Assembly: GCA_015655585.1 (NCBI GenBank)
Contig: JAATEV010000024.1
Location: 1 to 64,000, forward strand
Reading direction: 5' to 3'
Length of the DNA stretch: 64,000 nucleotides
Source of the DNA: Terriglobales bacterium
GTDB taxonomy: Bacteria > Acidobacteriota > Terriglobia > Terriglobales > Acidobacteriaceae
The notes under the pieces are model-generated. The model did not search any database and was not told where the DNA came from. It saw nothing but the letters and a program-made list of their open reading frames with translations. The position numbers and the translations under genes were made by a program. Shown here piece by piece: positions 15,888 through 39,932 of this stretch (position 1 is its first letter; each line of letters opens with the position of its first letter).

Positions 15888-18122
15888 CTATATAAGAGAT
15901 GCTGATGTTCCGGTACGCCGCATCCGGAAGGGGATTGGCAGCGTCGGCCAATTATGGAACTTCATCATCAGCTCGTTCAGGCTGACCGGCCGGCTGTAGA
16001 GATATCCCTGGGCGATGTTGCAGCCGAGGTCGATCAGGGCTGCTGCCTGCTCGGGCTCCTCCACGCCTTCGGCGGAGACCTTCATGCCGATGGTATGGGA
16101 CATGGAGATGACGAGTTGGACGATATCGGAGTTCACGGACCCCTTTTGCATGTTCTGAACAAATGATTGATCGATTTTGAGCGTGTCGATCGGATATTTG
16201 GCCAGATAGCTCAACGAAGAGTAGCCCGTTCCGAAGTCGTCGAAGGCGATCCGCACGCCCAGATCCCTGATCTTCTGAAAGAGCGTGCCGATCCGATCGG
16301 CATCCTTAATGAAGATGCTCTCCGTGATCTCCACCTGGAGAGTTCGGGGATCGATGCCGGTCTCATTGATGATGCTGGAGAGATCGGAGAAGAAGGAGGG
16401 TTCCTCCAACTGGCGGCTGGAGGCGTTGACGCTGAGAAGCAGGTGCTCGCCGAAGGCCTTCTGAATCTGCTGCATATCGATGCAGGCCTGCCGCGTCGCC
16501 CATGAGCCGATGGCGACGATGTGCCCGGTCTCTTCCGCCAGCGGAATAAATTTGGCTGGGCTGACGAGCCCCTGCCCCGGATGGTTCCACCGGAGCAAGG
16601 CCTCCACCCCGGTGATCGAGCGGTCGCGCATATCCACGAGCGGCTGGTAGTAGACCTCGAACTCTCGTTTTTCGAGCGCGGACCTGAACTCCAGCTTCAT
16701 CTGAAGAGCTGCCATGGAGTCCTCGTGCATCGAGGGATCGTAGACAAGGCAGCACGATCCTCCATTCCGCTTGGCGCAATACATCGCGGTGTCTGCGTTG
16801 CGAAGGATCTCTTCTGCCTCGCCGTACTCGGCGTTGATCCTGCAGATTCCGATGCTGGCCGAGACCGGCAGAAGCGTTTCGGCCAGGAGGACAGGCTCTT
16901 CGATGATGTCGAGGATGCGCCGCGCGATGCGAACCGCGTGCTCCATATCCTGCAGGTCCGACAGCAGGAAGGTAAATACGTCGCCTCCTATGCGGGCTGG
17001 CGTGTCATGCTTTCGCTTGTATCTCTCCAGACGCTGCGCCATCTCGACGAGCAGCAGGTCGCCCTGCCGGTGGCCGAGCATATCGTTGACCACCTTAAAG
17101 TTGTCGAGGTCAATGTAAAGAACGGCGGCGCAGGAGACCTTGCGATTCCGTACCTGGGTGAGCGCGTCCGATACGACATCCAGAAAATAGGGCCGATTCC
17201 GTAGTCCGGTGAGGCTGTCATGGAAGGCCATCTGATGCAGCTTGGCTTCTACCTTCTTGCGTTCGAGAATCTCCTCGACGAGCGCCTGGTTCTGCATCCG
17301 CATCGCTCTCTGTTCGCCGAGAGCTTCCAGCGCACGCCGCCGCTCATCGTTCAGTTGGGAGTCCTGCGCATGGGAGGAGATGTGCCGGTCCAGAACCGCG
17401 GCGGCGACCAGAAAGACGAAGACCGCGATGGAGAGAAGAAGAAAGCTGCCTGTATCGAAGGCGGAGGCAGAGACGGTGTAGCGTGAGACGGCGCGTGGCA
17501 CGGTGAGGATTTCGACAGGTGTGGAGGCGAGTCCCAGGCATTGGGCCGATACCAGTGCGATGCCTAAGAGGAAGGCTTCTCCCGGAACCTGCCATCTCTT
17601 GCCGGGCGTAGGGGAAGAGGGAGCGAGCGTGTTATAGAGCGACCAGAAGGCGATGGCGATAACTGGAAGTGCCAGCAGGACTGTCTGTGGGCTGGAGTAA
17701 GTCAACGCTGCGCCAGGCGAGAGCGCTTCTAAATTAAAGTAGAGTCCCAGAAGAAACGAGCTTCCGAAAAAGATACTTCCGGCTAGAGATGTTATTGTCC
17801 TGTGCAGCTTTCTGGACGTGAGCAATGCGATGAAGGAGGAGGCCGTTATGGATACAAGAAGCGACAAGGCCAGGTTGGGCCAATAAATTCTGAAAGTAAC
17901 ATCGTTCGGCAGGAAAGCTCTTATGCCTGTGACTTGTGTGACCCATGATCCTGTTCCGGTCGCAATGACGGCGAGACCGAACCAGGCCAGATTGCGGGCA
18001 GAGCCGATCCGCCGCACCATGTCGAGAAGCAGATACCAGGAGAGACTGGCCAGCAGTAGAGAAAGAGCGAGCAGGCAAAGGCTGTCGGTATTGTGCAGGG
18101 CCATCGCGACTCTCTCTGTCAT
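15888..18122 (-). CDS. membrane-anchored GGDEF/EAL bifunctional diguanylate cyclase/phosphodiesterase
   Basis: 744 aa; hydrophobic N-terminus; DSLTGLRNRPYF and RIGGDVFTFLLS (degenerate GGDEF); EVYYQPLVDMRDRSITGVEALLRWNHP (EAL), DDFGTGYSSLSYL. Confidence 0.93.
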   Translation of the reverse strand: MTERVAMALHNTDSLCLLALSLLLASLSWYLLLDMVRRIGSARNLAWFGLAVIATGTGSWVTQVTGIRAFLPNDVTFRIYWPNLALSLLVSITASSFIALLTSRKLHRTITSLAGSIFFGSSFLLGLYFNLEALSPGAALTYSSPQTVLLALPVIAIAFWSLYNTLAPSSPTPGKRWQVPGEAFLLGIALVSAQCLGLASTPVEILTVPRAVSRYTVSASAFDTGSFLLLSIAVFVFLVAAAVLDRHISSHAQDSQLNDERRRALEALGEQRAMRMQNQALVEEILERKKVEAKLHQMAFHDSLTGLRNRPYFLDVVSDALTQVRNRKVSCAAVLYIDLDNFKVVNDMLGHRQGDLLLVEMAQRLERYKRKHDTPARIGGDVFTFLLSDLQDMEHAVRIARRILDIIEEPVLLAETLLPVSASIGICRINAEYGEAEEILRNADTAMYCAKRNGGSCCLVYDPSMHEDSMAALQMKLEFRSALEKREFEVYYQPLVDMRDRSITGVEALLRWNHPGQGLVSPAKFIPLAEETGHIVAIGSWATRQACIDMQQIQKAFGEHLLLSVNASSRQLEEPSFFSDLSSIINETGIDPRTLQVEITESIFIKDADRIGTLFQKIRDLGVRIAFDDFGTGYSSLSYLAKYPIDTLKIDQSFVQNMQKGSVNSDIVQLVISMSHTIGMKVSAEGVEEPEQAAALIDLGCNIAQGYLYSRPVSLNELMMKFHNWPTLPIPFRMRRTGTSASLI

Positions 18123-18649: not shown

Positions 18650-18847
18650 ATGTCGAAACTACATCTGTTATTGGACACTCTGATTGCTGATGACTCAGGT
18701 CAAGATCTTATCGAATACGCTCTGGTAGCAGGACTGGTAGGTCTTGTTGCTACCGCAGGTATTCCTGCCGTTACGACCGCCATCTCGGCTGTTTTTAGCG
18801 CCATTACCACCAAGCTGAACACCGCCGCCGGAGTTACTCCTGGCTAA
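18650..18847 (+). CDS. Flp-type IVb prepilin
   Basis: 65 aa; SGQDLIEYALVAGLVGLVATAGIP with the Flp cleavage/EY motif. Confidence 0.93.
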   Translation: MSKLHLLLDTLIADDSGQDLIEYALVAGLVGLVATAGIPAVTTAISAVFSAITTKLNTAAGVTPG

Positions 18848-18856
18848 TGGAACGAG

Positions 18857-18884
18857 GAGGGGGCCCGGCGCTGGAGGCCCCCTC
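18857..18884 (+). terminator. GC-rich hairpin after flp pilin gene
   Basis: GAGGGGGCC (18857-18865) / GGCCCCCTC (18876-18884), 10 bp after the pilin stop, followed by GTTGTGT. Confidence 0.6.
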
Positions 18885-19024
18885 GTTGTGTCGGTTGAAT
18901 CGGGAACAAACTTGATTGTTATCGCGTAACGGAAACGTCTGTTACGCGTGTCTGGTTTTTTGCGAGCTCTGGAGCAATGCGTTCAGAGCGAAGCTTGTAC
19001 TTTTTATCTCCCTGGGGTTCTCAG

Positions 19025-19570
19025 ATGCAAACGGATATAGGAACGCTTTATTGCGCGATAGCTTCCTTTATTGCAATTCTCGCGGCTGGCTGCGATATAA
19101 GAAGCCGCAGGATACCGAACGCACTGGTTGGTCCCGCGCTTGCGCTTGGGCTATCGCTTCATCTTGCGATGGATGGATGGCGCGGACTGCTGTCGTCGTT
19201 TGCTGCCGTATGCATTGCGGGCGGAATCTTCCTGATATTTTTTATCGCCGGTGGCATGGGTGGGGGCGATGTAAAGCTGATCGCCGCGCTGGCGTCGATC
19301 GTTGGCTTGGGCTATACGGGCTATCTTCTGGTATTCACGGCGCTGGCTGGCGGAGTGATGGGAGTAGGACTCGCGCTTCTGCATGGGCAACTGCGGCAGA
19401 CCTTCTTCAATATGTCCGCTCTCGCGAGTCATCATCGCCATCAGGGTTTGTCTCCACACCCCGACCTGAACATTAAGAATATCCATACCTTGCGTCTTCC
19501 CTATGGCGTTGCGATTGCTATTGGCAGTCTGCTGACGCTTTATCTGCATACAACCCAGGGAGGACTGTAA
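19025..19570 (+). CDS. A24 family prepilin peptidase (TadV/CpaA)
   Basis: GCDIRSRRIPNALVGPALALGLSLHLAMDGW and GGMGGGDVKLIAALASIVG (GxGDxK-type motif); ORF track extends to 18977. Confidence 0.9.
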   Translation: MQTDIGTLYCAIASFIAILAAGCDIRSRRIPNALVGPALALGLSLHLAMDGWRGLLSSFAAVCIAGGIFLIFFIAGGMGGGDVKLIAALASIVGLGYTGYLLVFTALAGGVMGVGLALLHGQLRQTFFNMSALASHHRHQGLSPHPDLNIKNIHTLRLPYGVAIAIGSLLTLYLHTTQGGL

Positions 19571-20469
19571 TGGTTCGCCGTCTTATCATTGCGCTGATCG
19601 TCGCGATCAGCATCTCGGGATTGATTACGTTCGGGATGAGCCGCAGGTTCGGCAGGCCGCATCTGCCTGCGCCGTCGAAGCTTCAGTACGTGGCTACGTC
19701 GAAGAAGATGGAAGCGGGAGAGGTGCTGAGGCTGGAGGATCTGAAGAAGATCGGCTGGCCGAGCTCGGTGCCGCTCGAAGGATCGTTCACGCGGCCGGAG
19801 GATCTGGTCGGTCGCACGCTGCTCTATCCGCTGGCGGGAAATGAGCCAATTCTGAATCAGCAGCTATCTGCTCCGGGGCTTGGTCCGGGGCTTTCGCCGA
19901 AGATTCCCGATGGGATGAGAGCGCTCTCCTTGAAGTCGGACCAGGTTGTGGGGGTCGCGGGATTTCTGCTCCCCGGCACGCATGTCGATGTTCTGGTTAC
20001 ATACCGCGCGCCGTCTTCGTCGGACCCGGTGACTGCGATTGTCTTGCAGGATGCACAGATCCTGACCGCCGGGCAGAAGATGCAGCCTGATCCTGATGGC
20101 AAGGCGACGACGGTGGATGTGGTAACAATTCTGGTCGCTCCGCAGGACGCGGAGAAGGTTGTTCTGGCCAGCGCGCAGGGAACGGTCCACTTTGTGCTGA
20201 GAAATGGATCGGACCATGCGCATCTTGATGACAAGCCGGTGCAGCTCTCCTCGCTCAATGTGTTTGCGGAGACTCGCGGCCTTCGATGCGGCGCTTCCCG
20301 ACTGTATCGAACTGTGCGCCCGCGCTCTTCGCGCCGGGCATTCGATTGTCGCGGCAATCGATATGGTGGCGGTTCAGGCTCTGGAGCCGGCGAAGACGGA
20401 GTTTACGGAGGTCTTCAAGAAGCAGAACTACGGCCTTCCCCTGCGCGATGCTCTGCTGCAGATGCTTGA
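19570..20469 (+). CDS. Flp pilus assembly protein CpaB/RcpC, C-terminus replaced by out-of-frame tadB sequence
   Basis: SAF-type region KMEAGEVLRLEDLKKIGWP...GRTLLYPLAGNEPIL; RcpC-type VVGVAGFLLPGTHVDVLV; CpaB-like only to about 20265, then a frame-shifted reading of tadB sequence (RCGASRLYRTVRPRSSRRAF...). Confidence 0.8.
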   Translation: MVRRLIIALIVAISISGLITFGMSRRFGRPHLPAPSKLQYVATSKKMEAGEVLRLEDLKKIGWPSSVPLEGSFTRPEDLVGRTLLYPLAGNEPILNQQLSAPGLGPGLSPKIPDGMRALSLKSDQVVGVAGFLLPGTHVDVLVTYRAPSSSDPVTAIVLQDAQILTAGQKMQPDPDGKATTVDVVTILVAPQDAEKVVLASAQGTVHFVLRNGSDHAHLDDKPVQLSSLNVFAETRGLRCGASRLYRTVRPRSSRRAFDCRGNRYGGGSGSGAGEDGVYGGLQEAELRPSPARCSAADA

Positions 20470-20815
20470 GCGCGTTCCGTCGATGGATTTGCAGGTGATG
20501 GTGACGGGAATTCTGGTGCAGAAGGACACGGGCGGAAACCTGGCGGAGATCTTCGACCGCATTGTTACGCTGACACGTGAGAGGCTGCGTATTCAAAGGG
20601 AGATTCGCGTCCATACTGCACAGGGAAGACTTACCGGCTGGATACTTTGCCTGTTGCCAATCGCTCTTCTTCTGCTGATGAACCTTGTCAATCCCGGCTA
20701 CTCCGGCGTCTTCTTCCACGACCCGCGAGGGAAAAAGATGGTGTATGCAGGACTAGTCCTTCTGCTGATTGGAATCTTCTCGATCCGGCAGATCGTCAAC
20801 GGGGTGGAGGTCTAG
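20204..20815 (+). CDS. TadB (T2SS F-like inner membrane protein), N-terminally truncated remnant
   Basis: From about 20270: RRLAAFDAALPDCIELCARALRAGHSIVAAIDMVA...GILVQKDTGGNLAEIFDRI...AQGRLTGWILCLLPIALLLLMNLVNPGY, the TadB C-terminal half; upstream residues are an out-of-frame reading of cpaB. Confidence 0.8.
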   Translation: MDRTMRILMTSRCSSPRSMCLRRLAAFDAALPDCIELCARALRAGHSIVAAIDMVAVQALEPAKTEFTEVFKKQNYGLPLRDALLQMLERVPSMDLQVMVTGILVQKDTGGNLAEIFDRIVTLTRERLRIQREIRVHTAQGRLTGWILCLLPIALLLLMNLVNPGYSGVFFHDPRGKKMVYAGLVLLLIGIFSIRQIVNGVEV

Positions 20816-20818
20816 AGG

Positions 20819-21721
20819 ATGCAGATACTCTTCTACACCGCGCTTGCTGTGACTGTCTTCTGTGCACTTGCGCTTCTCCTCGTCCCTATCCTCATGCGGC
20901 CTACGCGGGAGGCGCAGCGTCTTCTCGGAGTGGTTCGGAATACACGTCCGGATCAAAGAAAGATAAGTCGGCGTGAACGTGTTGAAGAGGGATTGCTTAC
21001 CGTGGCCCGCGATTTTCGCGCATGGCTGGGGATAACGGAGAGTACCAAGGTATCGGAGCTTATGGTCTCCGCGGGTATTCGCCGTGCGGAGTCTTCGGAC
21101 CTGTTTTTTGCGGCGCAGTGCCTTTTGCCGTTGCTCGGAGTCGTAGCGGGCAGCTTTGCCAGAAGCAATACTTTTTTCTGGATTACGCTCTTTGCCGCCG
21201 TTGGATATCTTCTGCCGAATACCTGGCTGAATTATAAGATCAGCCGGAGAAGAAAGAGGATATCGCGCGGTCTTCCGGATGCAATCGATCTTCTGGTGAT
21301 CTGCGTCGACGCAGGGCTGGGGCTCGATCAGGCTCTGCTGCGGGTAAGCGCGGAGATTGCGCTGAACCATCCCGATATTCAGGAAGAGTTCAACCGCGTG
21401 AACCTAGAGCAGCGCGCTGGAGTGTCGCGTCTGGAGGCCTTCCAGAATCTGGCGAACCGGACGAAGATTCCCGAGTTTGCAACCTTCGTCAGTATGTTGA
21501 CGCAGACTGACCGCTTTGGAACCCCGATCGTAAAGGCGCTAGGCCGCTACTCGGATGATCTTCGGCTGAAACGCAGGCAGAGCGCGGAGGAGGCAGCCGC
21601 AAAGACAAAGATAAAGATCGTATTCCCGCTCGTGTTCTGTATCTTCCCCTGTCTGTTTATTGTGTTGCTTGGCCCCGCCATTCTTAGCATTATCAGCACG
21701 CTTGGAGGACTTGGAAAGTAA
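20819..21721 (+). CDS. TadC (T2SS F family protein)
   Basis: 300 aa; LPDAIDLLVICVDAGLGLDQALLRVSAEI...FATFVSMLTQTDRFGTPIVKAL; C-terminal TM. Confidence 0.9.
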   Translation: MQILFYTALAVTVFCALALLLVPILMRPTREAQRLLGVVRNTRPDQRKISRRERVEEGLLTVARDFRAWLGITESTKVSELMVSAGIRRAESSDLFFAAQCLLPLLGVVAGSFARSNTFFWITLFAAVGYLLPNTWLNYKISRRRKRISRGLPDAIDLLVICVDAGLGLDQALLRVSAEIALNHPDIQEEFNRVNLEQRAGVSRLEAFQNLANRTKIPEFATFVSMLTQTDRFGTPIVKALGRYSDDLRLKRRQSAEEAAAKTKIKIVFPLVFCIFPCLFIVLLGPAILSIISTLGGLGK

Positions 21722-21800
21722 CCCGGACTATCGATCCTGACTAACTCGATAGATAAATAAAATGCTGTAATTAACCTGATGGAAAGAAGGAGATAGCGTC

Positions 21801-21896
21801 ATGGAAACCACAACTCTTGTTCGTATCGTCGCAGGTGTACTGGCAGTCGCTGTACTTGCTCTGATCGTTTACCGCAGAAAGAACCATTCGGTTTAA
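21801..21896 (+). CDS. 31-aa small membrane protein in tad locus
   Basis: METTTLVRIVAGVLAVAVLALIVYRRKNHSV*, ATG with upstream purine-rich SD (GAAAGAAGGAG); single TM plus basic tail; not in ORF track (too short). Confidence 0.55.
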   Translation: METTTLVRIVAGVLAVAVLALIVYRRKNHSV

Positions 21897-21922
21897 CCGC
21901 CGTTCGAGAGTACGAGAAGACG

Positions 21923-22291
21923 ATGCGCACGATAAGGATCATGGACGAGACTCGCGCCAGCGTGATCGGCGACCACGTCGAGGTGGCCGAGACATCGTTG
22001 CGGCGGCTCGTCGGTCTTCTTGGTCGGCGCGGCATCGAGCCGGGAGGGGGGCTGTGGATCAGGCCCTCCTCCGGTATTCATACTTTCGGTATGTCGTTTC
22101 CGATCGATGTAATCGGACTGGATAAGGAGCTGAACGTAGTCCGGCTCTGGAACCGCATCGTGCCGTATCGCATCACCGCGCTCAGTTGGAGAATGTGCAG
22201 TGCGCTGGAACTTCCCGCCGGACGCATCGCTGAAGCAGGCGTGCAGCTTGGGGATCGACTTCGCGTGGTTCCGGGAGCAAGCCATGAGTAG
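21923..22291 (+). CDS. DUF192 family protein
   Basis: 122 aa; GLLGRRGIEPGGGLWIRPSSGIHTFGMSFPIDVIGLDKELNVVRLWNRIVPYRI. Confidence 0.88.
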   Translation: MRTIRIMDETRASVIGDHVEVAETSLRRLVGLLGRRGIEPGGGLWIRPSSGIHTFGMSFPIDVIGLDKELNVVRLWNRIVPYRITALSWRMCSALELPAGRIAEAGVQLGDRLRVVPGASHE

Positions 22292-23690
22292 GCTGCGGAT
22301 ACTTAGGGATGAAAGCGGCCAGGCCGTCATCGTCGTTGCGCTCTGCATGGTCGCACTGATGGGTTTCTTAGGGCTCGCCATCGATGTTGGCGTGCTGCGC
22401 TATGCGAAGCAGAATCTCCAGACCGCGGCCGATGCGGCGGCCCTTGCCGCGGGTATGGAGATACGTGTGTGCGGCTCACAGCCGAACTGTCCTGCGATGC
22501 AGGCGGCAGCACAGAAGGCGCTGGATGAAAATGGGCTGACGGGAAGCACGTTGATGACCGGCTGCGGCTCTTCCCCCGGAAGCGGTCTCACCTTGCAGAT
22601 CAACGATCCTCCCTGCGAGCTTGGAGCCGCAGATCCAAATACCGGACGAACAAATTTTGTCGAGGCGGTTGTGTCCCGCCGCGAACAGACTTACTTTGCG
22701 CGTTTTCTGGGTATCAATAACGTGATGCTCTCTGCGCGCGCCGAAGCGTCCAGAAATCCGAATGCACCCTGTATCTATGCTCTCGATCCCACCGGAGCAG
22801 GAGCTATCTCGGTCCTTGCGGCGGTCGGTCTGCAATCGAAGTGCGGCATCGTCGACGAATCGAACTCATCGGCGGCGCTCACATGCCTCGTCGGTCTGCT
22901 TGTCTCCGCACCCAAAATCGATGTTACCGGCGGCACCGCCGGGCTTTTGTGCGGCTCGACTCCTCCGCCCAGAACTCATGTCCCTGTGCCTGTCCCCGCA
23001 GACCCGCTTGCCTATCTTCCGCCGCCTCCCCATGCGAGCGATCCCTGCCCATCGAGTCCCGCTTCCGGTAATTCATATTCTGGCTCATCGCAGCAAGTGA
23101 ATGTTGGTCTCCTGGGCAACTATGTATTCAATCAGGGGATTTATTGCGGAGGGATCAGTATCACTGCGGCAGTCTTGATGAATGTAACGTTCAACCCTGG
23201 CATCTATATTCTGCGACAGGGACCAGGAGGGTTCCTGAATCTGAGTACGACCGGCGGCTTCAGTATTACGATCAGCGCTCTCTCCTCGATTACTGGTAAT
23301 GGGGTCCTCTTCTACAACCAGGGGTCAGCAGGAAACATCCCGGGGCAAGCAGGAGGTTTTTCGATCACGGCTCCGCTGTTGAGCAACATAAGCTTGTCGG
23401 CGGCGACAAGTGGAGAGTATGGAGGCGTCCTATTTATGCAGGCTCCGCAGAATACCTCGCCCGGGAGCTTTAATGCGAACCTCCCGCTAGGCAGCAAGCT
23501 GGAAGGAGCGATCTATCTTCCCAATGCGTCGGTTAGCTATGGAATCTCCGCCATATCATCCGCCTACAACATACTTGTCGCAAAGGACATTAACTTCGAT
23601 GTCCCGGTTCTCAGCAGGTTTGGCAATAACTACGCCACGCTGGAGAATGGTTCTCCTCTGAACGGAGACGATGCGGTGCTTGTGCAGTAA
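22284..23690 (+). CDS. TadG/TadE-like pilus assembly protein (putative Flp pilus-assembly TadG N-terminal domain)
   Basis: DESGQAVIVVALCMVALMGFLGLAIDVGVLRYAKQNLQTAADAAALAAG; ATG at 22284 overlaps the DUF192 stop; ORF track starts earlier at 22200. Confidence 0.85.
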   Translation: MSRLRILRDESGQAVIVVALCMVALMGFLGLAIDVGVLRYAKQNLQTAADAAALAAGMEIRVCGSQPNCPAMQAAAQKALDENGLTGSTLMTGCGSSPGSGLTLQINDPPCELGAADPNTGRTNFVEAVVSRREQTYFARFLGINNVMLSARAEASRNPNAPCIYALDPTGAGAISVLAAVGLQSKCGIVDESNSSAALTCLVGLLVSAPKIDVTGGTAGLLCGSTPPPRTHVPVPVPADPLAYLPPPPHASDPCPSSPASGNSYSGSSQQVNVGLLGNYVFNQGIYCGGISITAAVLMNVTFNPGIYILRQGPGGFLNLSTTGGFSITISALSSITGNGVLFYNQGSAGNIPGQAGGFSITAPLLSNISLSAATSGEYGGVLFMQAPQNTSPGSFNANLPLGSKLEGAIYLPNASVSYGISAISSAYNILVAKDINFDVPVLSRFGNNYATLENGSPLNGDDAVLVQ

Positions 23691-23718
23691 GCCGTTCGAA
23701 GAAAGGAGATCGACATCA

Positions 23719-24168
23719 ATGCTATCGAGAGGAATACGCCGCAGGAGGGAAGAGGATGGCACCAGCATTCTTGAGACGGCGCTCGTGCTGCCTGTCCTGC
23801 TGCTGATGCTGGTAGGCGCAGTCGATCTAGGGCGAGCCTATTACACGGCGATCGAGGTAAACTCGGCGGCACACGCGGGCGCTATGTACGGCTCGCAAAA
23901 CGCCTCGGATGTGGCAGGGATGATTACTGCCGCGAATGCCGAGGCTCCCGATGTAGCTGGTCTGACTCCGACAGCAATGTATGGATGCGAATGTTCGGAC
24001 GGTTCAGGGATTTCGCCATCCTGCAGCTCGACACCCTCGTGTCCGTATAACACGGTGTACTACGTCGAGGTGGATACGACCGCCACCTATACGCCTCTCC
24101 TGTCGCTCTCCGGTGTCTTTGGCCCATTGAACCTTAAGTCCTCGGCGCGCATGAGGGCTACTTATTAG
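23719..24168 (+). CDS. TadE-like pseudopilin/pilus assembly protein
   Basis: EEDGTSILETALVLPVLLLMLVGAVDLGRAYYTAIEVNSAAHAGAMYG; SD AAAGGAG before ATG 23719. Confidence 0.85.
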   Translation: MLSRGIRRRREEDGTSILETALVLPVLLLMLVGAVDLGRAYYTAIEVNSAAHAGAMYGSQNASDVAGMITAANAEAPDVAGLTPTAMYGCECSDGSGISPSCSSTPSCPYNTVYYVEVDTTATYTPLLSLSGVFGPLNLKSSARMRATY

Positions 24169-24188
24169 ATCCAGGTCAGGAGGCTCGT

Positions 24189-24677
24189 ATGAGATTGAGA
24201 GATAGGCAACTCCTGTCGGCCGAAGGCGGAAGCACGATCATCGAGTTCGCCATGAGCCTTGTGGTGTTGCTCACCTTCATGTTTGGGATCTTCGACTGCT
24301 CGCTGCTGCTCTATGCCAACCACTACGTTACCAATGCCGCCCGGGACGCGGCCCGATACGCCATGGTGCGAGGCTCAACCTGGGGCGTCGCCTGTGCTAC
24401 TCCTGCCAGTTTTTCATGTACTGCGACAGGCCCCAATGTGACGAGCTATGTACAGAGCTCCATTTCTCCGATGATCGATGCCAGCCAGCTTACAGTAACT
24501 ACAGACTGGCTCCCTACGACCCCGGCAGGTGGCGCCTGCAATAACGTTTCGGGGAACAACAGTCCGACGTGCACGGTTCGTGTGAAGGTCAACTACACGT
24601 TCCACTTTCTTCTTCCATTTTTACCTGCGGACGCTCTTACCCTGAGCAGCACTTCAGTCACTGCCATTTTGCAATAA
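24189..24677 (+). CDS. TadE/TadF-like protein
   Basis: EGGSTIIEFAMSLVVLLTFMFGIFDCSLLLYANHYVTNAARDAARYAMVRG. Confidence 0.87.
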   Translation: MRLRDRQLLSAEGGSTIIEFAMSLVVLLTFMFGIFDCSLLLYANHYVTNAARDAARYAMVRGSTWGVACATPASFSCTATGPNVTSYVQSSISPMIDASQLTVTTDWLPTTPAGGACNNVSGNNSPTCTVRVKVNYTFHFLLPFLPADALTLSSTSVTAILQ

Positions 24678-24936: not shown

Positions 24937-25526
24937 TTAAAACTCCTCTATTTGGTTGGCCAACTTTTGCAAAGTTTGAATTACCAAAAAACAATTAGCA
25001 ACATAAAAAGTTACTTTTTTCGAATCTCCCCATCCTGTTTCCCGGAATGGAATTTGTGTAATTGCATTTAGTGATTACCTATGGGGCATAAGGAACTTAC
25101 ATCCATGATCCGGTCGAAGTATCGATCTATACCAAGAGGTAAGTGACGCTCTTACGGGCATTTCGTCGTGATATCAGAAGTGATGTCAATCGGCGGGTTT
25201 ATTTCTCCCCACTCAACTCAGACCTGTTTTTCGACGATATAAAAGGAAAACCGTAAGAGCGGATTTCTTCGGTTACTTTTGTAATTTTTATCTGTTTTCC
25301 GCAGGGTCTGGGGGAGTTATGCCGAAAGGTCGCAACGTTTTCGCAAAGTGAAGATACGCACAGCCTGCTTCCGAATCTTCTTGTGGCTATGCCTGCTCCC
25401 TCCCGCGACTCCATCAAGCTCTATCCTGTGCCGGCATTGCTCCGGCGATTCGTTCCACATCACATCCTTCCTTCGTACCGATTCCAAACTGCTGTCATTC
25501 GCAACATGAACTCCCAGGAGCTTTCT

Positions 25527-28500
25527 ATGTCAACGCCACTGATCGACTCTCTTCATTCGCAAAATCGCAGCCATATGACTGTGGATCATGACAGCCTGCC
25601 TGTGGTTTCGAAGCACCCTGCTCATGCAGGCAAAGTGATCTTTCTCATGTTTCTCGCGGCCTGGACCATGCTGATCGCGGGATGCGGCACCGGAGGATAC
25701 GCAGGCGGCGGCATCAACGGGCTGTCGAGCTCGGCGGTGATCCTCGACGCCGGCCAGTCGTTCATCGAGACGTCTAAGCTCTCGGGTTCGCCGACTGTTA
25801 CCTGGTCGCTCACCGGTGGCTCCTGCAGCGGCAATAGTTGCGGAACGCTTTCAAGCACCACTGGCGCCTCGGTGACGTACACCGCGCCTGCAAACATCAC
25901 TGGGCAGATGTCGGTCACGCTCACCGGAGCGGTCTCCGGCACGGGTAGCTCCAGCGCAGTCAGCATTACGGTCAATCCCGATCCGGCGATCACCGGCACG
26001 GCGGCCTCTGGAACTGTTGGAGTTACATATTCCTACAAGTTCACTTCCTCTGGTGGCACAGCTCCTCTCAAGTGGAGCATCGCCAGCGGCACGCTTCCTG
26101 ACGGTCTCAGCTTCGATGCCTCCACCGGCATCGTATCCGGCACGCCGACCACGATCGGCACGTCGAAGTTCACCTTGCAGCTCACGGATGCGAGCAATGT
26201 TCCGTATACCGTGACCTCGTCTCAATCCATCACGATCGCTGCGGTTGGAGCGAGCCTTTCTGTTGCCCCGGGGAATCCTCCTGCGGGAACGGTCGGCTCC
26301 GCTTATACGACTACACTCCAGGCTGCCGGAGGTGCGTCGCCCTACACGTGGAGCATCATTTCGGGAGCGCTTCCGGCAGGACTCTCCCTCGATCCCGCCA
26401 CGGGCGTCATCTCTGGAATACCAACTACACAGGGGAGCTTCCCCTTTACGGCGCAGGTGCAGGATTCCACCGGCGCGACGACGAGCGCGAGCTTGAGTAT
26501 CGCGGTCAATGCGGCTTCCAGCGCGCTTACAGTTACGCAGACGAATCTTCCCGGCGCGACCGTGGGCACACCGTATAACACGACCATTGGAGCTACGGGT
26601 GGCACCGCACCCTACAACTGCTCGGTCACGGATGGAACGCTCCCCGCAGGTATTACCCTTACGGGCTGCACTCTCTCCGGCACGCCGACGACGGCAGGGA
26701 CATCGACGTTCACGGTGACTGTCACCGACTCCGGCAATCCTCCGGGAACCGCCAGTTCTCCCGAAACCATTACCGTCGCTCCAGCCTCTTCGACGCCGAT
26801 TGTTCTGTCGCTCGGTCTCATTCCACCTGGAACCGTGGGCGTACCGTATAGCGCGCCGATAGGAGTCACAGGCGGTACCGCGCCCTACTCCTGCTCGGTA
26901 ACGGGCACGCTCCCCGCTGGCATTACCCTCACGGGCTGCACTCTCTCCGGTACGCCGACGACGGCAGGATCATCGACGTTCACGGTTTCAGTCACCGACT
27001 CCAGTAATCCTCCTGGAACCTCCAGCTCTCCTGTCACCCTCGCCATCAATCCGGCGCAGCTCTCGCTGACGTCCCCCACTCTCCCGGCAGGAACTGTGGG
27101 TTCGCCGTATAGCGCGCCGATTGGAGCTACGGGCGGCACCTCGCCTTACTCCTGCGCGATTACAAGCGGCACGTTCCCCGCTGGGCTTACGCTTACGGGT
27201 TGCACGGTCAGCGGTACGCCAACCACTGCCGGCACCTCGAACGTAACGGTTCAGGTGACGGACAGCGGGAATCCCGCCCAGTCCGCTACCGGACCTGTCA
27301 GCCTCACTATCGCTCCTGCGCCGCTTACGCTCGCGGTTAGCTCTCTTCCAAACGGAACTCAGGGCTCGCCGTACAGTGCGTCAATCGGAGCTACGGGCGG
27401 CACCTCGCCTTACTCCTGCGCGATTACAAGCGGCACGCTCCCTGCTGGGCTTACGCTTACGGGCTGCACGGTCAGCGGCACGCCGACCAGCGCCGGTACT
27501 TCAAACCTGACGGTCAGGGTGACGGACAGCAGCAATCCTGCCGCGTCGACCTCCGGGCCTGTCAGCCTCACCATCACTCCGCCGCCGCTTACGCTCGCGG
27601 TTAGCTCTCTTCCGAACGGAACTCAGGGCTCGCCGTACAGCGCGTCGATTGGAGCTACCGGCGGTACTTCTCCTTACTCTTGCTCCATCGCAAGCGGCGC
27701 ACTACCGGCGGGGCTTACTCTTACGGGTTGCACGGTCAGCGGCACGCCAACCGTTGCCGGAACGTCGAACCTGACAGTCAAGGTGATAGACAGCAGCAAT
27801 CCTGCCGCGTCGACCACCGGGCCTATCAGTCTCGTCATCGCCCCGGCTACTGGGACGCTCACGCTGACTTCGCCGCCGGCTGCAACCGTGAACGTCTCCT
27901 ACTCCGGCCCGATTGGAGTCAGCGGCGGTACCTCACCCTATAGCTGCTCGCTGGTCTCCGGCACGCTCCCCGCTGGGCTTTCGCTCACGGGCTGCACGGT
28001 CACGGGGACGCCGACCACTGCGGGTTCCACCAGCATCATGGTCAAGGCTACAGACTCCAGTCTGCCGACGGCCGTCACCACTACGGCCCCGGTTACGGTT
28101 ACAGTTTCACCCGCTGGAACTCTGACGTTGGCCCCGCTGCCAAATGCAACCGTCTCGACTCCATATTCTGAAGTTATTGGAGTCTCTGGCGGCACCGGAC
28201 CCTATAACTGCACGGTTACGGGAACTCTGCCCGCCGGTCTGCACGCCACGGGCTGCACGATCTCCGGTACGCCGACCACCGCAGGAACCAGCAGCTTCAG
28301 CGTGACGGCGACCGATTCCAGCTCTCCGACGGCTATAACCACAACCGGGCCGGTTAGTCTCACGGTCTCGCCTGTATCAACTCTCACTCTCGACGGATCG
28401 CTTCCGAACGCGATCCTCGGTCAACCCTACACGCAGACCCTGAACGCCACGGGAGGCGTAACACCCTACGTCTACAGCGTCACGGCTGGCACTCTGCCCG

Positions 28501-30251
28501 CCGGGCTTACCCTCGATCCTGCTACCGGAACCATCAGCGGAACGCCCACGGCTCCGGGAGCCAGCAGCTTTACCGTCACGGTGACGGATGCGGAGACGAC
28601 GCAGCAGACGGCAAGCCTGCCTCTCGTTCTTCTCGTTGCCTATCCCACAACGCCGAACGATGCGGAACTGACCGGCCCCTACGCCTTCCTCTTCCAGGGG
28701 TATGACGATGTGGCCCTCGGTGTCTTCGCTTACCAGACAGCAAGCGTAGGAAGCTTCACGGCCGACGGTACCGGAGGCGTAATCTCCGGAGAGATAGACT
28801 CCAACCACGCGACGCCCGCTCCCACCGGAGCAATCGTCAGCACTAACGAGTTCATTGGCACCTACACCATCGATGCCAATCACCAGGGATCGTTGACGAT
28901 CACCATCCTCAACCCCGACGGTACCACCGGAAGCGCAACCTACGCGATCTCGGTCAAGGCGCCCATTGCTCCGGCAACGGTCTCCACCGAGGCAAGCTTC
29001 GTCGAGTACGACAACGCCAACCTCGTCGGAACGAAAGGCTCCGGAACGCTGCTTCTTCAGCAGCCGACGGCCTTCTCTACTGGCCTGAGCGGCAGCTACG
29101 TCTTCGGCATGTCGGGCGACGCGCCTTGCCTGCCGACCTGCACCCTAGGCGTCATCGCTGGCCCAGCGGCAGCCGTCGGCCAGTTCACGGCCAGCGGCTC
29201 CACTATCACGGGAACCGGCGACTCGAACATCGCGACTACCAACTACCCAACCGAGGTGCTCACCGGCAACTACGGCACGCCCGATGGCAACGGCCGCATC
29301 TCCCTCACCCTGGACACGGCCAATACTCCGGCAGGCGTCTACCCGACTGACTTCGCGGTTTACGCCGTCAGCTCGACCCAGGCGTTCCTACTCTCTCTCG
29401 ACAATCACTCTGCCTACGTTCTGCTCGCCGGTTCCGCCCAGCAGCAGCAGACGCCGGGCAGCTATAGCAACGCTTCGATGACCGGGCCGTTCATCGGGTA
29501 TGAGAACGCCGCGACCAATCCCAACCTGGTCACGGGCCTCGCTCTGGAGAACGTGCTCAACTTCTCCACCGCAACCATCTTCCGGGGAACTGCTACTGCG
29601 GATGGAAACTGCAATATCACCAACTACGACGAAGGAGGGTTGACCGGGTTGGTCAACGGTGTCACCGGTCTCGTCTCCAGTCTGCTCCAGGGGCTGCTCC
29701 AAGGCCTGCTTGGGCCTTCGGCGACGACAGGAGCCATTACCTGCGACGTATCGTCCTACGGGCGCGGAACGCTTCAATATCCTAAGCCAAACCTGCTCAC
29801 CGCTGCTCCTGCGCCGCGTGTCTTCTACCTCAGCTCGCCGAATACCGGCTACTTCCTCGAATCGGGCTACGCCGGGCTCGGTAACCTCGAGCCTCAGACA
29901 GGCGCTCCCTTTACCGAGGGAACCTTCAGCGGAACCTTCGTCTACGGAAGCACGACAGCCGCCTCGCTGGCCAGCATCAACAGCGCGGGCTACATCGTCG
30001 CAAACGGAAGTGCAGGAACTGCTACCTCCGTACTGAGCCAGAACATAGGTGTCGGCAACATCAATCTGTTGCAGCTCACCACAACCCCGGCAATGCCCTT
30101 CACCCTGTTGGATCCAACTACCGGCGATCCTGCCACGACGGGACGTTATACCTTCGGCACCGATGTCATCTACGCGATCAACCCCAACAGGTTCGTCCTG
30201 GTGGATATTGGCCCGCTGACGACCTCGCCTACCGTGAACCTGCTGTACTAG
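25527..30251 (+). CDS. lipoprotein-like large protein with about 10 tandem Ig-like (He_PIG-type) repeats
   Basis: FLMFLAAWTMLIAGCGTGG lipobox-like segment; repeats of TVGSPYSAPIGATGGTSPYSCAITSGTLPAGLTLTGCTVSGTPTTAGTS with 88-aa spacing; ATG 25527 preceded by CAGGAG; ORF track start 25383 less likely. Confidence 0.9.
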   Translation: MSTPLIDSLHSQNRSHMTVDHDSLPVVSKHPAHAGKVIFLMFLAAWTMLIAGCGTGGYAGGGINGLSSSAVILDAGQSFIETSKLSGSPTVTWSLTGGSCSGNSCGTLSSTTGASVTYTAPANITGQMSVTLTGAVSGTGSSSAVSITVNPDPAITGTAASGTVGVTYSYKFTSSGGTAPLKWSIASGTLPDGLSFDASTGIVSGTPTTIGTSKFTLQLTDASNVPYTVTSSQSITIAAVGASLSVAPGNPPAGTVGSAYTTTLQAAGGASPYTWSIISGALPAGLSLDPATGVISGIPTTQGSFPFTAQVQDSTGATTSASLSIAVNAASSALTVTQTNLPGATVGTPYNTTIGATGGTAPYNCSVTDGTLPAGITLTGCTLSGTPTTAGTSTFTVTVTDSGNPPGTASSPETITVAPASSTPIVLSLGLIPPGTVGVPYSAPIGVTGGTAPYSCSVTGTLPAGITLTGCTLSGTPTTAGSSTFTVSVTDSSNPPGTSSSPVTLAINPAQLSLTSPTLPAGTVGSPYSAPIGATGGTSPYSCAITSGTFPAGLTLTGCTVSGTPTTAGTSNVTVQVTDSGNPAQSATGPVSLTIAPAPLTLAVSSLPNGTQGSPYSASIGATGGTSPYSCAITSGTLPAGLTLTGCTVSGTPTSAGTSNLTVRVTDSSNPAASTSGPVSLTITPPPLTLAVSSLPNGTQGSPYSASIGATGGTSPYSCSIASGALPAGLTLTGCTVSGTPTVAGTSNLTVKVIDSSNPAASTTGPISLVIAPATGTLTLTSPPAATVNVSYSGPIGVSGGTSPYSCSLVSGTLPAGLSLTGCTVTGTPTTAGSTSIMVKATDSSLPTAVTTTAPVTVTVSPAGTLTLAPLPNATVSTPYSEVIGVSGGTGPYNCTVTGTLPAGLHATGCTISGTPTTAGTSSFSVTATDSSSPTAITTTGPVSLTVSPVSTLTLDGSLPNAILGQPYTQTLNATGGVTPYVYSVTAGTLPAGLTLDPATGTISGTPTAPGASSFTVTVTDAETTQQTASLPLVLLVAYPTTPNDAELTGPYAFLFQGYDDVALGVFAYQTASVGSFTADGTGGVISGEIDSNHATPAPTGAIVSTNEFIGTYTIDANHQGSLTITILNPDGTTGSATYAISVKAPIAPATVSTEASFVEYDNANLVGTKGSGTLLLQQPTAFSTGLSGSYVFGMSGDAPCLPTCTLGVIAGPAAAVGQFTASGSTITGTGDSNIATTNYPTEVLTGNYGTPDGNGRISLTLDTANTPAGVYPTDFAVYAVSSTQAFLLSLDNHSAYVLLAGSAQQQQTPGSYSNASMTGPFIGYENAATNPNLVTGLALENVLNFSTATIFRGTATADGNCNITNYDEGGLTGLVNGVTGLVSSLLQGLLQGLLGPSATTGAITCDVSSYGRGTLQYPKPNLLTAAPAPRVFYLSSPNTGYFLESGYAGLGNLEPQTGAPFTEGTFSGTFVYGSTTAASLASINSAGYIVANGSAGTATSVLSQNIGVGNINLLQLTTTPAMPFTLLDPTTGDPATTGRYTFGTDVIYAINPNRFVLVDIGPLTTSPTVNLLY
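27321..27848 (+). repeat. near-identical tandem 264-bp coding repeats within Ig-repeat gene
   Basis: CCGCTTACGCTCGCGGTTAGCTCTCTTCC(A/G)AACGGAACTCAGGGCTCGCCGTACAG at 27321 and again at 27585 (264 bp = 88 codons). Confidence 0.85.
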
Positions 30252-30302: not shown

Positions 30303-31601
30303 ATGCGTCGTATCTATCTAGCCCTGGTCTTTGTTACAGCCGGAGTTCCTGCTGCCTTGGCGCAGCAGGACCCCTCCGAGGCGGCACTCGTTCCCCGTCT
30401 CGATCTCTCCGTTGGCTATAGTCACGTCAACGCCAACGCGCCTCCCGGCATCTCCAGCTACTTTGGCCCCAACGGGGGATATCTCTCCGCGGGCTATCGC
30501 CTGAACGGTTGGTTGGGCGTCGCTGGAGAGTTCACTGGCGGCCACGCCGGCAACATCAGCCAACTCGGCCAGAACCTCACCCTGCTCACCTACATGGCCG
30601 GACCTCGCGTCACCTACAGCGGATACCGGTTCGTCCCCTACGGACAGGTACTCTTTGGCGGAGCTCACGGCAGCGATTCCTACTTTCCCTCGGGAACGTC
30701 GTACAGCACCAGCGCCTCCAGTTGGGCGCTGTCCGCAGGCGGAGGCCTCGACATCGGTCTCACGCGCCGCCTCGCCGTTCGGGCCGTCGAGGCTCAGTAC
30801 CTGCGCACCGTCTTTCCCAACGGAAGCACCAACGTGCAGAGCCACCTGATGCTCGGAGCCGGTCTCGTCTTCCGGTTCGGTCATGTGCGCCACTGGGTAG
30901 CGGCTTCGACCCCGGTGATGGACCGGAAGTCGGAGGAGATATCCTTCAACTGCAACAGCAACGCGGCTCGCATCGATCAGGGAGACACCCTCCAGATCGT
31001 AGGCCACACCATGACGGAGCCCGACAAGCTCGATATCCGCTATTCATGGACCTCCTCCGGCGGCAACATAGAAGGAGGAGGACGTCTCGTTACCATCAAC
31101 ACAACAGGCATGGCCCTCGGGACCTACCACGTCACCGGACACGCTGTTCTGGTGTCCGCTCCCACGGTTACGGCGGATTGCGATGTGGACTTCCAGGTTG
31201 GCAAGCATGAAGTAGCGGCCGCCAGCTCTGGCGACGCCAATCGCGTCCAGCAGGAGCAGCTCTTCCACCAGAACGTTCCCGACGCGCTCTTCGACTACGA
31301 CAGCTACCAGATCCGGCCCGATGCCCACACCTCCATCGAGCACGCCGCCTCATACCTCAACGATCATCCTGCAATCGGCGTCCTCGTCGAGGGGTACGCC
31401 GACGACCGCGGCTCGGCGGAGTACAACCTTGCCCTGGGAGAGAAGCGGGCCAACGCCGCCCGCGACGCTCTCATCTCGGCTGGAGTTCCGCCCGGGCGTG
31501 TCGAGATCATCAGCTACGGCAAAGAAGCCCAGGTCTGCACTGCCCAGGACGAAAACTGCTGGCAGCGCAACCGCCGTGCCGCCTTCTCCATGCACCCCTG
31601 A
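30303..31601 (+). CDS. OmpA family outer-membrane protein (beta-barrel + OmpA peptidoglycan-binding domain)
   Basis: Signal ALVFVTAGVPAALAQQ; barrel LDLSVGYSHVNANAPPG...; C-term LFDYDSYQIRPDAHTSIEHAASYLNDHPAIGVLVEGYADDRGSAEYNLALGEKRANAARDAL. Confidence 0.93.
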   Translation: MRRIYLALVFVTAGVPAALAQQDPSEAALVPRLDLSVGYSHVNANAPPGISSYFGPNGGYLSAGYRLNGWLGVAGEFTGGHAGNISQLGQNLTLLTYMAGPRVTYSGYRFVPYGQVLFGGAHGSDSYFPSGTSYSTSASSWALSAGGGLDIGLTRRLAVRAVEAQYLRTVFPNGSTNVQSHLMLGAGLVFRFGHVRHWVAASTPVMDRKSEEISFNCNSNAARIDQGDTLQIVGHTMTEPDKLDIRYSWTSSGGNIEGGGRLVTINTTGMALGTYHVTGHAVLVSAPTVTADCDVDFQVGKHEVAAASSGDANRVQQEQLFHQNVPDALFDYDSYQIRPDAHTSIEHAASYLNDHPAIGVLVEGYADDRGSAEYNLALGEKRANAARDALISAGVPPGRVEIISYGKEAQVCTAQDENCWQRNRRAAFSMHP

Positions 31602-39207: not shown

Positions 39208-39855
39208 CTAAATCTCCGTCACCAGATTCGCCTTCTCTACATTCCCCAGGGCGATCTCCACGTTCTGGCTGGTTGCAGCCTTCTTCGCCTTGCCCTTCTG
39301 CTTCACCGCAGTCAGGTCCAGCGTCAAAACCCCGTCCGCAAACTGCGTCAGACGGCCCTGCCAATGCCTGTTGTCGTTCACCGGAGAGAAGGTCTGCACC
39401 TTCACCAGGCTTCCGGCAAAGCGGCTGTAGTCCTCCGCCTTGGTCAGCTTGCGTTCCAGCCCCGGCGACGAAACTTCCAACGTATACTCCGCGCCCGGAA
39501 TCAGGTCTTCCACGTCCAGCACCGTGCCAAAATCCTGCGCAAACACCGCACAATCTTCATGGGTTACGCCGGAAAGCCTCTCCACCGGCACGCCCTTCGG
39601 AAGTTCCTCCAGCAGTGGATCGACCGAATCTATAGAACCAGCCTCAGCAGAACCAGCCTCGGCTTCTTCGCTCGTCCCTCCCGCCGCCAGAATCTTCTCG
39701 GCCAGCTTCGCCCGCTCTTCGGCATTCTTCTCGATAAACACCCGCAGCGTCCGAAACTTAGCCCCGCCCTGAAACTCCAGGTCGACCACCTCCAGGTGGT
39801 GTGACGCGGCAACCCGCTCCGCCGTGGCTCGAATTTCGTCCAGATGCACTGCCAT
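39208..39855 (-). CDS. rimP: ribosome maturation factor RimP
   Basis: LEVVDLEFQGGAKFRTLRVFIEK; GAEYTLEVSSPGLERKLTKAEDYSRFAGSLVKVQT; ATG 39855 (MAVHLDEIRATAERV) preferred over ORF-track start 39930, which lies inside a terminator hairpin. Confidence 0.95.
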   Translation of the reverse strand: MAVHLDEIRATAERVAASHHLEVVDLEFQGGAKFRTLRVFIEKNAEERAKLAEKILAAGGTSEEAEAGSAEAGSIDSVDPLLEELPKGVPVERLSGVTHEDCAVFAQDFGTVLDVEDLIPGAEYTLEVSSPGLERKLTKAEDYSRFAGSLVKVQTFSPVNDNRHWQGRLTQFADGVLTLDLTAVKQKGKAKKAATSQNVEIALGNVEKANLVTEI

Positions 39856-39907
39856 AAACCTTCTTCCGACTCTCTTCTTCCACTTCCCGGGATGCTTTTT
39901 GGAGCAA

Positions 39908-39932
39908 ATAAAAAGTGGGCATCGGCCCACTT
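39908..39932 (-). terminator. intrinsic terminator/attenuator in rimP-nusA-infB leader
   Basis: Minus strand AAGTGGGC-CGAT-GCCCACTT followed by TTTATTTG; located 58 nt upstream of the rimP ATG. Confidence 0.8.

Follow-up and report, generated by a model that had tools for sequence, protein, structure and literature searches.

A tad pilus locus with a probable internal deletion from cpaB into tadB in a Terriglobales bacterium

Loss of TadA and of the secretin abolishes pili in the Tad system. A natural loss of 10 genes, from flp-1 to tadC, has been described in Aggregatibacter actinomycetemcomitans 31S, a smooth derivative strain that keeps tadDEFG and has no fimbriae detectable by TEM (PMC9239275). 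In the tad locus of Bdellovibrio bacteriovorus HD100, only tadV has been reported missing, the locus is expressed, and the flp genes are needed for predation (PMC5430801). The tad locus analysed here lies in a stretch of 64,000 nucleotides (hereafter the window), and it resembles that of strain 31S in its apparent multi-gene deletion within the locus, with flanking tad genes left in place. However, it keeps flp, tadV and tadC, which fall within the flp-1 to tadC segment lost by 31S, and the latter belongs to another phylum. Like HD100, the window carries a tad operon short of canonical parts, but HD100 lacks one of them whereas the window lacks the motor and the secretin. Unless an assembly fault is involved, the locus most likely represents a broken pilus locus of a type that has been documented before.

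The tad (Flp pilus, type IVc) cluster occupies positions 18650-24677 of the window on the plus strand, and its genes were identified by Pfam (Table 1). The preliminary description of this DNA had regarded flp, tadV, tadC, tadG and the tadE-like genes as intact, and their domains were indeed matched by Pfam; a DUF192 gene can be added to this list, located between tadC and the tadG-like gene and found downstream of tadC in most relatives too. By tblastn, flp shares 33-67% identity with the flp of relatives, and tadV has a near full-length match in them. The true start of the tadG-like gene is probably downstream of the annotated one, close to where the DUF192 gene ends. Apart from cpaB and tadB, none of the tad reading frames in the window is broken.

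Table 1. Features of the tad cluster and of the cpaB/tadB junction, in window coordinates.
Feature	Position	Strand	Evidence or remark
flp prepilin gene, intact	18650..18847	+	65 aa; Flp_Fap E 5.7e-5, under Pfam cut-off
tadV prepilin peptidase gene, intact	18977..19570	+	PF01478 Peptidase_A24 E 2.4e-15
cpaB/rcpC 5' part, residues 1-230	19570..20259	+	PF16976 RcpC, PF08666 SAF
Deletion junction (putative), ~8 nt uncertainty	20260..20267	.	left/right homology limits and intervening lengths, nine relatives
cpaB-frame nonsense tail through tadB sequence	20260..20469	+	open frame 19570-20469
tadB 3' part (T2SSF domain and C-terminal part)	20267..20815	+	PF00482 E 2.1e-18
tadC, intact	20819..21721	+	PF00482 E 7.5e-19; full-length match in relatives, 44-60% identity
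DUF192 gene	21923..22291	+	PF02643 E 2.1e-15; tblastn matches
tadG-like gene	22200..23690	+	PF13400 Tad E 1.4e-11; PF09977 Tad_C E 7e-5
tadE-like gene 1	23671..24168	+	PF07811 TadE E 7e-13
tadE-like gene 2	24189..24677	+	PF07811 TadE E 6.2e-15

The cpaB and tadB sequences lie in different frames across the junction. In an alignment to nine genus relatives, CpaB homology ends for most of them at residue ~229-230 (nt 20256-20259), and TadB homology begins at nt 20267, which corresponds to residue 22 of the frame 20204-20815. The frame switch that had been placed near 20265 is thereby borne out, and the positioning of the breakpoints by alignment to relatives, as had been advised, narrows the junction to 20260-20267. 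CpaB had been said to run to about 20265, which is close to the point where its homology stops (~20259) but does not hold for the frame itself, which continues for ~70 nonsense residues past the junction before stopping at 20469. Most relatives match the cpaB frame only up to residue 229-236, and ~50 C-terminal residues of CpaB are missing when the tad locus L034 of one relative is taken as reference. On the other side of the junction, ~141-150 N-terminal residues of TadB are gone, in agreement with the earlier remark that its N-terminal region is absent, and the T2SSF domain is whole; the remnant is 58-66% identical to the TadB of relatives over ~182 residues. No strong ribosome-binding site was evident by eye at the possible restarts of the tadB remnant (ATG 20204, ATG 20216 and TTG 20264), and none of the 14-mers of positions 20210-20330 recurs elsewhere in the window.

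The distance between the two homology limits is 4,621 to 5,344 bp in all nine relatives compared. The content of this stretch was identified gene by gene, with Pfam, in one relative (L034, G006 C150), where it consists of the last 50 CpaB residues, a secretin (CpaC/RcpA; PF00263, E 4.5e-42), a P-loop protein resembling TadZ, an ATPase matching T2SSE (TadA/CpaF; E 2.8e-61) and the N-terminal ~140 residues of TadB. The tad loci L034 and L035 (G019 C139) share with the window the order flp-tadV-cpaB ... tadB-tadC-DUF192, and the parts of cpaB, tadB, tadC and tadV that the window has kept show 44-66% protein identity to those of relatives; in contrast, the 4.6-5.3 kb with cpaC, tadZ, tadA and the start of tadB are present in the relatives and absent from the window. 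The remnants on either side of the lost block are thus collinear with relatives in which the block is intact, and this collinearity, found in each of the nine, lends good support to the single deletion of several kb proposed in the preliminary description.

Across 63 genomes of the genus, a search returned 43 strong TadB matches, window included. All 42 matches other than the window have an open frame of at least 321 aa, against 204 aa for the TadB-bearing open frame of the window, indicating that the fusion does not arise by chance and that the junction is a derived state and not the architecture of the family. Moreover, in all 12 tad-bearing genomes tested, tadB is preceded, a few hundred bp upstream, by TadA at ≥75% identity. 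Relatives sharing the same compact arrangement had been named as the observation that would speak against a deletion; none of the 63 genomes displays it, and a family-specific compact architecture was rejected. The search revealed no relative closer than ~66% amino-acid identity in TadB, so that the exact breakpoints, and any microhomology between them, are placed only approximately.

We then consider the rest of the host assembly, a genome bin of a soil bacterium (122 contigs totalling 3.12 Mb, with 74.7% completeness and 3.2% contamination). A TadA/CpaF ATPase is absent from both the window and this 74.7%-complete assembly, where a T2SSE search retrieved only PilB-type fragments and one weak match, and the same assembly has no PF00263 match for a CpaC/RcpA secretin and no counterpart of TadZ/CpaE, for which contig C8 gave only a weak match (28%, residues 152-316). 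A search of the assembly for T2SSF domains, aimed at a second tad platform, retrieved only a PilC-like gene on contig C67 besides the tadB and tadC of the window, and the window copy of CpaB is the only one in the assembly. The missing block used as a DNA query against the assembly gave no match, a result that is weak alone as the search had no positive control. The absence of secretin, TadZ and TadA noted earlier for the window therefore stands and extends to the assembly, where the recommended search for tadA, cpaC, cpaE and a second tad cluster gave nothing beyond the weak T2SSE and TadZ matches and the PilB- and PilC-type sequences. A second tad locus was likewise not found in this 74.7%-complete assembly, and nothing in the 75% of the genome present backs the suggestion that the motor and the secretin might come from another locus. 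Compared with a complete Tad system, the host has Flp and TadV (Flp_Fap being below its curated cut-off), a platform pair in which tadB, a 3' remnant, no longer forms a full partner of the contiguous tadC, and, in the 74.7%-complete assembly, no TadA, secretin or TadZ.

The ancestral locus would have had the order flp-tadV-cpaB-cpaC-tadZ-tadA-tadB-tadC-DUF192, with the tadG/tadE-like genes behind it as in the window, and one continuous loss of ~4.7 kb would have begun at the end of cpaB and reached the middle of tadB. Such an event would have truncated TadB and eliminated the secretin, the localiser TadZ and the sole motor for extension and retraction; the remaining genes could at most make and process prepilins (flp, tadV) and provide half of an inner-membrane platform (tadC). 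Because only prepilin genes and half a platform are left, the locus should be pilus-null, as is also expected given what TadA and the secretin do, and we infer a loss of pilus function. The deletion would also be recent on an evolutionary scale, given that the orphaned parts are undecayed: the TadB remnant keeps 22 of the 22 near-invariant residues defined against 28 full-length relatives. This lack of decay fits a recent deletion and an artefact equally well. With regard to relaxed selection on the remnants, the branch of the window is long (0.43, root-to-tip 0.66) but not outside the values of the other branches (0.32-0.68), and the distance to the relatives is too great for a dN/dS test, so that the branch length says nothing on age.

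A recent, real deletion in an ordinary acidobacterial tad locus, giving a pilus-null locus, is in our view the best reading and probably the right one, and the junction would accordingly be present in living cells. The serious rival, which we hold to be unlikely, is that the locus is intact in the organism and that the junction stems from a chimeric library molecule, from two contigs merged by overlap during scaffolding, or from fragments of two co-occurring populations that were put together, the missing 4.7 kb having ended up in an unbinned contig. The evidence comes from a single assembly, which is incomplete and fragmented into 122 contigs, and the bin has a composite look. Five genus relatives have one copy of pilB, but in the bin the gene occurs as two partial copies, one at the end of contig C67 (39613-40402) and one at the start of contig C62 (1-1108; loci L044 and L043). 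The two share 90% identity across 266 bp, of which the final 58 bases match exactly, suggesting that two or more populations are combined in the bin. Remnants showing no decay would also be expected if the deletion existed in the assembly only. Against an artefact, the break zones in relatives are linked by neither a repeat nor a common k-mer, the longest word common to the 150-nt break zones being 6-9 nt in the nine of them. The junction also lies deep inside a 100-kb contig, and the other scanned genes of the window carry largely complete domains. Since the window contains no N run and the break zones no shared word >9 nt, there is no obvious repeat to collapse, and a repeat-mediated collapse, with ~8 ambiguous bases at the junction, is disfavoured. 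From the way k-mer assemblers work, such a program should have written the junction only from reads crossing it. The statement in the preliminary description that an assembly collapse would look identical was consequently too strong, as the break zones offer neither repeat nor shared word. Pending read evidence, we would class the locus as a degenerate tad locus carrying one internal deletion.

It could also be imagined that the compact locus has been retained for a function, its flp, tadV, tadC, DUF192 and tadE/G genes being served by the type IVa PilB/PilC of the cell or by a second tad locus in the quarter of the genome that is missing from the assembly. The open frames and the invariant TadB residues are intact, a type IVa PilB/PilC set exists in the bin, and several relatives have two or three tad loci. 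Nevertheless, we consider this very improbable: the 75% of the genome present has no second TadB/TadC, TadA or secretin, the tadB remnant would have to restart where no strong ribosome-binding site is evident and with its N-terminal part gone, and the arrangement occurs in no relative among the 63 genomes. More improbable still is a selected remnant in which Flp and TadE/G pseudopilins would be processed and put to use with no motor or secretin of their own, for instance driven by type IVa PilB/PilC.

The distribution of tadB in the genus is patchy, with a match in 30 of 63 genomes, several of which harbour two or three tad loci, and none in the other 33, 28 of them high quality. The tad pilus is thus dispensable in the genus, and its loss unremarkable. 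If real, the deletion described here would represent one more loss of the tad pilus, in a genus with patchy occurrence of the locus, possibly caught early, ahead of the decay of the orphaned genes. It opens no new mechanism, and its explanation is ordinary. A literature search aimed at incomplete tad loci as such found none. In practice, calling a "tad pilus" present from flp, tadV, tadC and tadE/G would mislead for the host genome.

Some features of the surroundings may be added. Third-position GC is 0.45-0.71 in the tad genes of the window and about 0.7-0.83 in many of its other genes, and the tad genes of L034 have 0.75-0.85, matching their flanks; from this lower third-position GC, the tad locus of the window may have been laterally acquired. 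Divergent from the tad locus and beside it, a gene at 15888-18122 (minus strand) encodes a GGDEF-EAL protein whose N-terminal region is hydrophobic; this protein may be linked to the control of pili or adhesion. Just downstream of the tad locus, a 1622-aa open frame (25383-30251, plus strand) is built from repeats such as TVGSPYSAPIGATGGTSPYSC, Ig-like in appearance, and is followed by an OmpA/beta-barrel protein (30303-31601). Further away, a RimP-like frame (39208-39930, minus strand) matches just the latter half of the RimP N-terminal profile, from residue 116, possibly reflecting a wrong start or a divergent N-terminus.
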